Source: Candidatus Woesearchaeota archaeon (GTDB lineage: Archaea; Nanobdellota; Nanobdellia; CSSed11-243R1). Taken from it: DNA of 15,419 bases. Shown here piece after piece: positions 5,799 to 15,419 of this stretch. The position numbers were made by a program, and so were the translations under genes. Every line of letters begins with the position of its first letter. Within the stretch, counting starts at the first letter, position 1. Under the pieces are notes generated by a model. That model was not told the origin of the DNA. It ran no database searches and worked only from the letters and a program-made list of their open reading frames with translations. The stretch lies in assembly GCA_007133845.1 (NCBI GenBank), contig SLLY01000019.1:1-15419 (forward strand), written 5' to 3'.

Positions 5799-5862
5799 AT
5801 TAACCACCACATATATAAAAACATTTGAAATTTAAAAAGTTTTTAGAATAGCCCCGCGCGGA

Positions 5863-5892
5863 CTTTCGTCACCTTTAGATTTTTTTGGTGGA
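5863..5892 (-). other. tRNA-Gln intron 2 (30 nt, T loop, position 59/60)
   Basis: The BHB is clear: exon helix CGCGG/CCGCG, central helix TTCG/CGAA (4 bp), three-base bulges AAT and AGT, and an intron helix CACC/GGTG. Cutting each bulge after its second base joins the exons to give loop TTCGAAT and stem CCGCG, a perfect T arm. Confidence 0.85.
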
Positions 5893-5921
5893 TTCGAACC
5901 GCGGTCGCAAGGTCCAGAGCC

Positions 5922-5979
5922 TTATGCTTTCGAGACTTATGCTTTCGAGCTTATGCTTTTTGAAGCATATTTTTCTAAA
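5922..5979 (-). other. tRNA-Gln intron 1 (58 nt, anticodon stem, position 29/30)
   Basis: Central helix ATGC/GCAT, bulges AAT and AAG, exon helix AGC/GCT. Cutting after the second bulge base gives a perfect 5-bp anticodon stem CAAGG/CCTTG. The intron helix beyond the bulge is weak. The intron carries a 7-bp hairpin (5952-5958 with 5963-5969) and extra copies of its own 3' splice half at 5936-5942 and 5950-5956. Confidence 0.75.
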
Positions 5980-6030
5980 TTGCATGCTTGACCACTACAC
6001 TACGGGGCTATAAAAAAAATAAACCACACT

Positions 6031-6063: not shown

Positions 6064-6795
6064 ATGGTTTTACTTGTAGCGTCTAAAAAAGATATTGCGG
6101 GAATGAATATAGGAAAACAGTGTGAAAATCTCGGATTGAAAGTTCATTATATTGATGAGGACTTGCTTTATGTTCAAAATCTTCCCGATGCAGATTATTA
6201 CATTTTCCTTTCTAAACATAAATCAGAATCTGGAAAACCATGTTTAACTTCACATTTTCCAGGAAATTTTTCCAACGCAAAATTTGGAGGAAAACCAGGA
6301 GAACTGGGTTTTACTTTTCCAAGCATTCAAAAGAATTTTATGAAAAATTTGAATCAAATAAATAATTCTCAAAAATATCAAATAGTTTTGGAAGCGACTC
6401 ATCACGGACCCACGCACTTCAAAAAACCCGTTATGTTTGTAGAAATAGGTTCAACAGAAAAAGATTGGATGAATAAAGATATTGCACTAATCATGGCAAA
6501 ATCAATTAAAAAAATGATTCAAAAAAATGAGATGTTTCAAAAAAACGCGATTGCTTTTGGAGGAACACATTATCCTGAAAAATTTACAGATTTATTGTTA
6601 AAGGATGATTTTGCTTTAGGACATATAATACCTAAATACGCAATTAAAAATTTGAATGAAAAAATTTTTATGCAAATGATTGAAAAATCAATTGAACCAA
6701 TAAAATATTGTATAATCGACTCTAAAGGATGTAATAGAAAGGGAGAAATAATCCAAATGTGTAAAGAAAATGGATTAGAAGTGATGAAAATATGA
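6064..6795 (+). CDS. dtdA: D-aminoacyl-tRNA deacylase, archaeal/plant type
   Basis: A 243-residue protein of the DtdA/GEK1 family, which frees tRNAs wrongly charged with D-amino acids by hydrolysing the ester bond. Family motifs are all present: FLSKHKSESGKPCLTSHFPG (48-67), G-G-K-P-G-E-L-G (75-82), L-E-A-T-H-H-G-P-T (109-117), V-E-I-G-S-T-E-K-D-W (126-135), F-G-G-T-H-Y-P-E-K-F (165-174) and G-H-I-I-P-K-Y (186-192). The conserved His residues in these motifs are expected to hold the metal ions; that is family knowledge. The length is close to the family norm, slightly short. The A/T box at about 6037 sits 26 bp before the ATG, so the message should be leaderless. The stop overlaps the next gene's start by four bases. 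It starts back to back with tRNA-Gln. Confidence 0.95.
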   Translation: MVLLVASKKDIAGMNIGKQCENLGLKVHYIDEDLLYVQNLPDADYYIFLSKHKSESGKPCLTSHFPGNFSNAKFGGKPGELGFTFPSIQKNFMKNLNQINNSQKYQIVLEATHHGPTHFKKPVMFVEIGSTEKDWMNKDIALIMAKSIKKMIQKNEMFQKNAIAFGGTHYPEKFTDLLLKDDFALGHIIPKYAIKNLNEKIFMQMIEKSIEPIKYCIIDSKGCNRKGEIIQMCKENGLEVMKI

Positions 6796-9373: not shown

Positions 9374-9492
9374 GGGTCAGTAGCTCAGCCTGGGAGAGCG
9401 CATGACTGAAGCAACATTTTCCACTTCGTGCAAAGCGTTGGTGGAAGGTTTAAGAAATCATGAAGTCGCCGGTTCAAATCCGGCCTGACCCA
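9374..9492 (+). tRNA. tRNA-Phe(GAA) with canonical intron
   Basis: 74 nt after splicing. Acceptor GGGTCAG/CTGACCC, discriminator A; D stem GCTC/GAGC with the GG of the D loop present; anticodon stem CATGA/TCATG; anticodon GAA; T arm GCCGG-TTCAAAT-CCGGC. The 45-nt intron lies at the usual 37/38 position. CCA is not encoded. A TATA-like box AATTTAAAG at about 9342-9350, inside the end of the ATPase gene, is correctly spaced. The loop C-T-G-A-A-G-A matches archaeal tRNA-Phe. Confidence 0.95.
9412..9456 (+). other. tRNA-Phe intron (45 nt, position 37/38)
   Basis: BHB: exon helix CATGA/TCATG, central helix CTGA/TAAG with one G-A mismatch, bulges AGC and AAA, then intron helix AAC/GTT and TTCCAC/GTGGAA. 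Cutting after the second bulge base gives the standard seven-base anticodon loop. Confidence 0.85.
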
Positions 9493-9500
9493 TTGCACCT

Positions 9501-9560
9501 TTTTAAAAAAAGCTGCACCAAAAACCAGAGTACTTTTAAAAAAAGCTGCACCAAAAACCA
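9501..9560 (+). repeat. 27-bp direct repeat, two exact copies after tRNA-Phe
   Basis: Positions 9501-9527 and 9534-9560 are identical. Each contains a T4-A7 run followed by GCTGCACCAAAAACCA. The hexamer TGCACC also occurs just before the first copy (9494-9499), so it is present three times (9494, 9514, 9547). The pattern resembles the tRNA-Thr intron. The rest of the spacer up to 9651 holds only A/T boxes (about 9619-9628 and 9640-9648) for the next gene. Confidence 0.9.
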
Positions 9561-9651
9561 AAATTATTTTTCTTTAAGAAAAAATGCTTGAACAAAAGAA
9601 ATTCACAATGAATCAAAAACCTTATAATCTATAATTACTTATAAATTAGTA

Positions 9652-14812: not shown

Positions 14813-15282
14813 AAATATTAAACAAAAAAGAAATAAAAAAGATAGAAAATAAAATTTATAGCATATATAATTCCGATTTAAAATTATCTAAATTTGCAGT
14901 GATGGAAAAGCAATATAAAAAAGAAATTTGGTTATCTTCAAAAAATATTTTCAAATTAGATTTAAAAAAATTTAATATAAGTTCTCTTGGAATGTATTTA
15001 GGAAGATTTGATAAAAATATAAAATTGGGTGTTGAAGGTTCTCAACTTGTAGGGGAAAAAGCAAAAAAGAATGTGTGTGAAGTGGAAGATGTGTGGAATT
15101 TCATAAGAGGCTTCAAAATAAAACCAACCAAAAAGATAAAATGTGATGAAAATCAATATGTAATTGTAAAATACGAAGATAATATTATTGGTTCAGCAAA
15201 ACTAAAAAATAATCAACTCGAAAGCATACTTCCAAAAAACAGAAAAATAAAAAGTCTTACAAAAAAGAAAATGCCTCGGTAG
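14809..15282 (+). CDS. PUA-domain RNA-binding protein (NIP7/NOP2-tail-like)
   Basis: A 157-residue protein starting in an ATGA overlap with the NSUN gene. Residues 1-70 resemble the pre-PUA region of NIP7 and of archaeal NSUN-linked proteins (helix then S-L-G-M-Y-L-G-R-F at about 59-67). Residues 73-143 read as a PUA domain: L-G-V-E-G-S-Q-L-V-G, then a strand region and Y-V-I-V-K-Y-E-D-N-I-I-G-S-A-K. PUA domains bind structured RNA such as the tRNA acceptor end. It probably guides the methyltransferase. The C-terminus is very basic (K-S-L-T-K-K-K-M-P-R). Its last ten bases lie inside tRNA-Thr: the final P-R codons are part of the acceptor stem, and the stop TAG is formed by tRNA positions 8-10. 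Confidence 0.82.
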   Translation: MKILNKKEIKKIENKIYSIYNSDLKLSKFAVMEKQYKKEIWLSSKNIFKLDLKKFNISSLGMYLGRFDKNIKLGVEGSQLVGEKAKKNVCEVEDVWNFIRGFKIKPTKKIKCDENQYVIVKYEDNIIGSAKLKNNQLESILPKNRKIKSLTKKKMPR

Positions 15283-15384
15283 CTCAGTTAACCTTTTTTG
15301 GAAAAAGCTTAACCAAAAAATCTGAAAAGTTAGAGCACTTGCCTCGTAAGCAAGGGGTCGAGGGTGCAAATCCCTCCCGGGGCT
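15273..15384 (+). tRNA. tRNA-Thr(CGT) with D-loop intron
   Basis: 74 nt after splicing. Acceptor GCCTCGG/CCGGGGC (one T-G pair), discriminator T as is common for archaeal tRNA-Thr; D stem GCTC/GAGC; anticodon stem CTTGC/GCAAG; loop CTCGTAA with anticodon CGT; T arm GAGGG-TGCAAAT-CCCTC. The 38-nt intron interrupts the D loop near position 17/18. Removing it gives D loop AGTTAGTTA, with A where G18 is expected; the T loop has G at position 55 where T is expected. The gene overlaps the upstream coding gene by ten bases, and AAATAAAAAG at about 15245-15254 is a possible internal TATA box. CCA is not encoded. Confidence 0.92.
15290..15327 (+). other. tRNA-Thr intron (38 nt, D loop)
   Basis: BHB: exon helix TAGC/GTTA (one G-T), central helix TCAG/CTGA, bulges TTA and AAA, then an A-T pair, a CC bulge and the 8-bp hairpin TTTTTTGG/CCAAAAAA with an 11-base loop. 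Cutting after the second base of each bulge gives the D loop described. The hexamer TTAACC occurs at 15288-15293 and again at 15309-15314. Confidence 0.8.
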
Positions 15385-15419
15385 TATCTAAAGCGTATGG
15401 TTGTAACCAAAAGATTTAA

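Follow-up and report, generated by a model that had tools for sequence, protein, structure and literature searches.

We studied a glutamine tRNA gene in a contig of a DPANN archaeon of the Nanoarchaeia, which agrees with the guess in a first-pass annotation that the host might belong to the DPANN. The window, by which we mean the whole 15,419-nt stretch that was analysed, carries this tRNA-Gln(CTG) gene, a divergent ORF beside it, and two further tRNA genes, for phenylalanine and threonine (Table 1). The ORF presumably encodes a D-aminoacyl-tRNA deacylase (DtdA). The genome of the window, G000, is a 517-kb assembly that is 78% complete. Our comparison covers six genomes of its family (G000 to G005), and a search at the level of the order draws the same six.

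Table 1. Features of the window, with what each call is based on
Feature	Position	Strand	Basis
tRNA-Gln(CTG) precursor, 161 nt	5849..6009	-	Splice-and-fold search; shuffles
Exon 1, tRNA positions 1-29	5980..6009	-	Identical in G001
Intron 1, 58 nt, position 29/30, BHB	5922..5979	-	Fold; orthologous 44-nt intron in G001
Exon 2, positions 30-59, anticodon CTG	5893..5921	-	Splice search
Intron 2, 30 nt, position 59/60, T loop, BHB	5863..5892	-	Fold; absent from G001
Exon 3, positions 60-73	5849..5862	-	Splice search
DtdA-like ORF, 243 aa, divergent neighbour, synteny anchor	6064..6795	+	ORF; relatives in 4 of the 5 other family genomes
tRNA-Phe(GAA), insert in anticodon loop region	9374..9492	+	57.3 bits; splicer parse not clean
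Three tandem intergenic stretches like the core introns, directly 3' of tRNA-Phe	9495..9601	+	Last by pattern, first two by eye
tRNA-Thr(CGT), 38-nt D-loop intron at 15290-15327 (17/18)	15273..15385	+	Splicer; Rfam sees the 3' part only

The usual search tools overlook some tRNA genes of genomes like these: ARAGORN found no tRNA anywhere in the window, and the Rfam tRNA model gives tRNA-Gln(CTG) just 14.6 bits, under its 29-bit cut-off. Our own search strips BHB introns and scores the cloverleaf that is left, and it was run blind to the expected answer. It recovered the same two introns, at 29/30 and 59/60, that the first-pass annotation had proposed, and the coordinates, the intron lengths of 58 and 30 nt, the mature length of 73 nt with A73, and the anticodon CTG all came out as proposed. 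It is also true, as had been claimed, that the cloverleaf forms only once both inserts are removed: read on the minus strand from 6009 to 5849, the spliced product is 73 nt with its stems paired and with A1:U72. The cloverleaf score rose from 13.7 with no intron removed to 24.0 after removal of one and 33.8 after removal of two, and it fell to 32.8 when three were removed. We dinucleotide-shuffled these 260 nt 200 times; whatever the number of introns removed, the highest score of any shuffle was 22.3, and none of the 200 came up to 27.5.

Both introns end in BHB junctions, that is, a 4-bp central helix and two 3-nt bulges with the cut after the second bulge base (the bulges were assigned partly by eye on the RNA folds). 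Intron 1 has H = AUGC:GCAU, bulges AA|U and AA|G, and h = AGC:GCU, and intron 2 has H = UUCG:CGAA with bulges AA|U and AG|U, so the central helix is 4/4 in each. In intron 2, h is the T-stem GCGG:CCGC, and h' is CACC:GGUG behind one mismatch. In the window copy, with TCC at both ends, the boundaries at 59/60 are ambiguous by as much as 3 nt, and 59/60 is the frame that yields a BHB. Relatives with empty sites give the boundaries too: position 59/60 is uninterrupted in G001 and G003, and 29/30 is uninterrupted in G003 and G004. Because the T arm of the G001 gene and the whole G003 gene are uninterrupted, the boundaries are backed independently of the fold.

We conclude, with a probability of about 0.94, that tRNA-Gln(CTG) is a functional gene interrupted by two archaeal BHB introns, with a transcript that is probably spliced to a 73-nt tRNA. 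Three points speak against it: the first h' pair of intron 2 is mismatched, duplicated units in intron 1 (see below) are alternative 3' sites that could mis-splice, and a search for the splicing endonuclease EndA did not find it in the 78%-complete G000 assembly (see below). We considered whether the gene might be a decayed pseudogene with two random insertions, as its escape from ARAGORN and its low Rfam score might lead one to think. Yet the exons are identical to those of the congener G001 at 73 of 73 positions, all of the stems pair, and both inserts lie in BHB frames, which together argue against a pseudogene. Nor did we find an intact substitute: among the 22 Rfam tRNA hits (E <= 10) in the 78%-complete G000 assembly, no other tRNA-Gln(CTG) was found, a finding that would have counted against the original annotation had it gone the other way. 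So we reject the pseudogene, which strikes us as very improbable. Another reading is a tRNA that is split or permuted and assembled in trans, for which the split tRNAs of Nanoarchaeum equitans are a precedent (PMC4090602). But the three exons lie contiguously and in order within 161 nt of one strand, and the BHBs form in cis, so we reject this reading as well and give it almost no weight.

If the gene works, then we would expect the whole 161-nt stretch to be transcribed, EndA to cut both introns after the second base of each 3-nt bulge, and the RtcB ligase to join the three exons into the 73-nt tRNA, which would then be charged. This scheme builds on the cloverleaf, the BHB geometry, the empty-site boundaries, the conserved exons, and the RtcB gene, all of which can be read from the sequence.

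The same gene was found in five of the six family genomes (it was not found in G005), and each of the five has a different set of introns: 29/30 and 59/60 in G000, 29/30 only in G001, 21/22 in G002, none in G003, and 59/60 in G004. Its distance from the DtdA-like gene is no more than about 0.1 kb in G000, G001, and G003, and no more than about 1.4 kb in G004 and G002. (A separate contig scan with the DtdA-like protein as the query found no relative.) Between G000 and G001, the DtdA-like proteins are 86% and 82% identical over two contig pieces, and the 73 exon positions of the tRNA do not differ at all, despite the 14-nt difference in the length of intron 1 and the lack of intron 2 in G001. 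Nor is this the only such gene: nine tRNA genes score at least 30 in both G000 and G001, and three of these, Val(GAC), Gln(TTG), and Gln(CTG), differ in their introns. That close relatives have different intron sets in one gene suggests that tRNA introns are gained and lost quickly in this group.

Intron 1 appears to have grown in place. It contains three copies of a AGCATAAG-CTC unit, a duplicate of the sequence around the 3' splice site; the last copy extends into exon 2. The orthologous 44-nt intron at 29/30 in G001 has two such units and is 14 nt shorter. We infer that intron 1 was lengthened by tandem duplication of a unit that holds its own 3' splice site, and it may also have lost cryptic sites. 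In the window copy, both upstream units are changed beside the would-be splice site, and G001 retains an exact cryptic duplicate.

Intron 2 may be a recent gain, or it may have been lost recently in G001, and it may also have spread, in one direction or the other, between this gene and the second glutamine tRNA gene of G000. That gene, Gln(TTG) on contig C24, is the sole other tRNA-Gln among the 22 Rfam hits in G000, and it has introns at 21/22 and 59/60. Its 59/60 intron matches the one in Gln(CTG) at 28 of 28 aligned nucleotides. Each of the two introns of our gene pairs solely with its own close copy, and both fall outside the core cluster described below at 32 bits. Movement of the intron need not be the explanation, as gene conversion of the shared 3' half of the two genes would leave the same pattern. 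The T arms and the 3' strands of the acceptor stems are identical in the two tRNAs, their 59/60 introns are nearly so, and neither glutamine tRNA gene in the congener G001 has a 59/60 intron. There is no direct evidence against conversion for intron 2, and we rate the odds of it as about even. Another intron does defy conversion, however: 66-nt introns at 59/60 in Gln(CTG) of G004 and in Arg(GCG) of G005 share 95% identity over 65 nt, and the exons around them differ, so that conversion cannot account for them. Most of the differences between these two copies are close to the intron end that pairs with the exon of its own gene. A third copy, at locus L090 of G003, is 97% identical over 63 nt and lies in what by eye is Arg(CCT), a locus for which our splicer gives no parse.

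Across the six genomes, we scored 143 candidate places, 104 of them in five genomes and 39 in G002. The candidates were Rfam tRNA hits with E <= 10, plus one T-loop pattern in G000 only, so genes with disrupted arms are under-sampled. At 34 of the 143 places, the splicer gave no clean parse or there was no tRNA. A score of at least 30 was reached by 93 tRNA genes, of which 64 are interrupted; among the 87 introns called in them, 52 are off the canonical 37/38. By genome, the numbers of genes and introns were 15 and 17 (G000), 14 and 14 (G001), 28 and 16 (G002), 12 and 14 (G003), 15 and 17 (G004), and 9 and 9 (G005). In three genes of G004 the parses are nested and over-count the introns by five entries, and we dropped these before comparing introns, which left 82, or about 0.9 per resolved tRNA gene in a sample that is biased because Rfam under-represents heavily broken genes. 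A few of the positions are doubtful (for example, those of "FGAA" in G003 and C1:272822 in G002). For comparison, the reported average is 0.21 introns per tRNA gene in archaea and 0.84 in the Thermoproteales (PMC8450103). By eye, we also saw a tRNA-Asn in G004 (L239; C2:24332, 24407) and a tRNA-Gly in G001 (L259; C92:1607-1788) that have three core-type introns each, and both are absent from the Rfam tRNA hits.

Many of these introns are related to each other. An all-against-all comparison of the 82 introns gave 228 pairs of at least 25 bits whose two members come from different isoacceptors, while 20 shuffled sets gave an average of 0.8 such pairs and a maximum of 2. One sequence cluster holds 38 of the 82 introns and spans many tRNAs, with positions that include 15/16, 16/17, 27/28, 30/31, 37/38, 39/40, and 59/60. 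The 38-nt intron of tRNA-Thr(CGT) in the window pairs with the 37/38 intron of Pro(CGG) in G004. The core pattern of the cluster is CTTTTCTTT-loop-AAAGAAAAG-GCTGCACC-AAAGAAA, and it matches 10, 11, 31, 44, 60, and 63 times in G000 to G005, respectively (overlapping matches may count twice); the reversed pattern matches 0, 0, 0, 6, 2, and 11 times. A CTTTCTTT:AAAGAAAG hairpin can be drawn by eye in many core introns, and since it is in the best structure of just 3 of the 10 that we folded, we do not claim a conserved fold.

The core sequence is not confined to tRNA genes. We fetched 30 loci and read the flanks of the pattern hits by eye: most copies are inside tRNA genes, some of them outside Rfam hits, and at least six are intergenic (L236, L238, L241, L244, L249, and L261). 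The match at L253 is within a coding sequence and seems fortuitous. A copy that matches the last of the tandem stretches behind tRNA-Phe in the window also lies 3' of tRNA-Phe in G001 (C27:4015-4047). Furthermore, the 16S rRNA gene of G005 (L264/L267) is interrupted by a 44-nt insert of the core family that has BHB-like ends, with 4/4 pairs in the central helix and 1/3 of the outer pairs. This site is uninterrupted in G003 (L265) and G004 (L266), and a probe for it had no match in the other three family genomes.

Outside of the order, we searched with a covariance model of the core, which is a sequence model only, as RNAalifold gave no base pairs. At E <= 1e-4 there are matches in 23 of 111 genomes of the Nanoarchaeia: the six from the order have 9-51 hits, G006 has 12, G089 has 15, and the others have 1-5. 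At two loci in G031 we recognized, by eye, tRNA-Ser and tRNA-Glu genes with core introns. In G006 (L268-L272, the 5 of its 12 copies that were fetched), as well as at L278 in G089 and L199 in G002, core-like elements lie 3' of uninterrupted tRNA genes. Some of the elements at these loci are followed by what looks, by eye, like a decayed copy of the 3' end of the tRNA.

The copies in G089, a distant relative from another Nanoarchaeia family, bear on how the introns arise. In five of the eight regions fetched from this genome (L273, L274, L275, L279, and L280), the element sits between direct duplications of 28-63 bp, and in one of the other three (L276) it is inside a tRNA-Ile gene. The duplications are perfect or nearly so, and several of the elements are at the starts of genes, as if insertion had duplicated a long target. 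One might suppose from the duplications that a new intron duplicates its target when it inserts and that the duplicate becomes the second splice site. The introns themselves speak against this: their ends are no closer to the adjoining exon ends than are permuted pairs (80 introns; p = 0.20 and 0.92), and the same holds within the core family (p = 0.23 and 0.63). A direct comparison of flanks gave scores of at least 14 for 9 of 107 true pairs and for 26 of 847 mismatched pairs, which is a loose control, as some of the mismatched pairs come from overlapping loci and their maximum is 46. We doubt that introns arose by target duplication and would give it less than one chance in ten.

Which enzymes would remove these introns? 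RtcB is encoded in four of the six family genomes, including G000. EndA (PF01974) was also found in four, and not in G000 (78% complete) or G003 (68%). There is a single EndA gene in each of G002 (181 aa), G004 (176 aa), and G005 (176 aa), whose genomes are 89-91% complete, and there are two in G001 (177 aa and 187 aa). The second EndA of G001 (L038, on contig C95), which is 43% identical and has the triad intact, could be contamination or a true paralog. Y113, H123, and K154, which we take to be the catalytic triad with positions taken from EndA of M. jannaschii, are invariant in all five copies. The best match in the PDB for the 177-aa protein of G001 is 1a79 (M. jannaschii EndA), and the alignment, which spans residues 8-177, contains just one gap, of a single residue, so this protein has no inserted loop. 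A broad-specificity EndA, (alpha-beta)2 or epsilon2, would have two subunit genes or a long fused chain and a CSL or ASL loop, and we did not find one in G002, G004, G005, or G001. EndA of these four relatives apparently resembles the narrow, single-gene alpha4 type, in which one short catalytic chain forms a homotetramer. The resolved junctions have full central helices, a feature that our search requires, so the splicer alone cannot demonstrate that all of the introns are strict.

Putting these observations together, we suggest an introner-like family of BHB introns, mostly of 45-66 nt, that would be proliferating through the order by moving from one tRNA isotype or position to another and by entering 16S rRNA, with related copies outside of genes and in other families of the Nanoarchaeia. 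A narrow alpha4-type EndA might tolerate these introns by itself because each copy carries a BHB end that is matched to its target, and tRNA-Gln(CTG), with its different introns in each of five genomes, would be a record of the turnover. Judging from genome comparisons, we would call this proposal a coin toss. Intron gain can be tested directly here, through the five configurations of tRNA-Gln, the empty and filled sites in 16S rRNA, and the nearly identical introns in different tRNAs.

In the open-access literature in PMC, we found no report of intron proliferation, a shared intron family, or such an intron density for these archaea. Positions 29/30 and 59/60 are both among the listed positions of archaeal introns (PMC4090602), and similar introns are common to different tRNAs (Fujishima 2010, as cited in PMC4033280 and PMC4090602). 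Our genomes resemble those of the Thermoproteales and other archaea in their BHB junctions, in having more than one intron in a gene, and in introns common to different tRNAs. What differs is that the host here is an order of DPANN Nanoarchaeia, that EndA of the relatives is alpha4-like, and that the central helices are of 4 bp (as our search requires). The first-pass annotation was correct that multiple non-canonical introns are present in a DPANN archaeon, but they are not as unexpected as it supposed: multiple or non-canonical tRNA introns are on record for the DPANN hosts Nanoarchaeum equitans and ARMAN-1/2 (PMC4033280, PMC4090602), and multiple introns are what our genomes have in common with them (PMC4033280). 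Nanoarchaeota are listed with alpha2-beta2 enzymes (PMC4090602) and ARMAN with an epsilon2 enzyme that has an extra loop (PMC6379350), whereas we found neither type in the family that we studied.

More distant archaea offer parallels as well. In the Asgard lineages Atabeyarchaeia and Freyarchaeia, 92-95% of tRNA genes are interrupted, often off 37/38 and several times per gene (PMC11291895), so their tRNA genes are intron-rich in much the same manner. They are an unrelated lineage, however, and the portion of PMC11291895 available to us does not mention a common intron family. In Caldiarchaeum, the intron content of tRNA-Thr varies at one locus within a population, and integration of a mobile element has been proposed (PMC3293823). 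We also see differing intron content at one tRNA locus, but while a mobile element is proposed there, our comparison on that point is with the ORF list of the window only.

Thus, the tRNA-Gln(CTG) gene itself is a further case of a known class, as its intron positions and DPANN hosts with multiple introns are already on record. Less expected is a lineage that appears to combine an intron density like that of the Thermoproteales, a common intron family that reaches 16S rRNA, and an alpha4-like enzyme. Relaxed cutting of BHBs and intron-rich genomes have been tied to (alpha-beta)2 and epsilon2 enzymes with extra loops (PMC6379350, PMC12397907, PMC4090602), and an association has been drawn between intron-rich sets of tRNA genes and broad-specificity endonucleases that have special loops (PMC6379350). 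A density like that of the Thermoproteales together with an apparently narrow enzyme would decouple the number of introns from the breadth of the enzyme.
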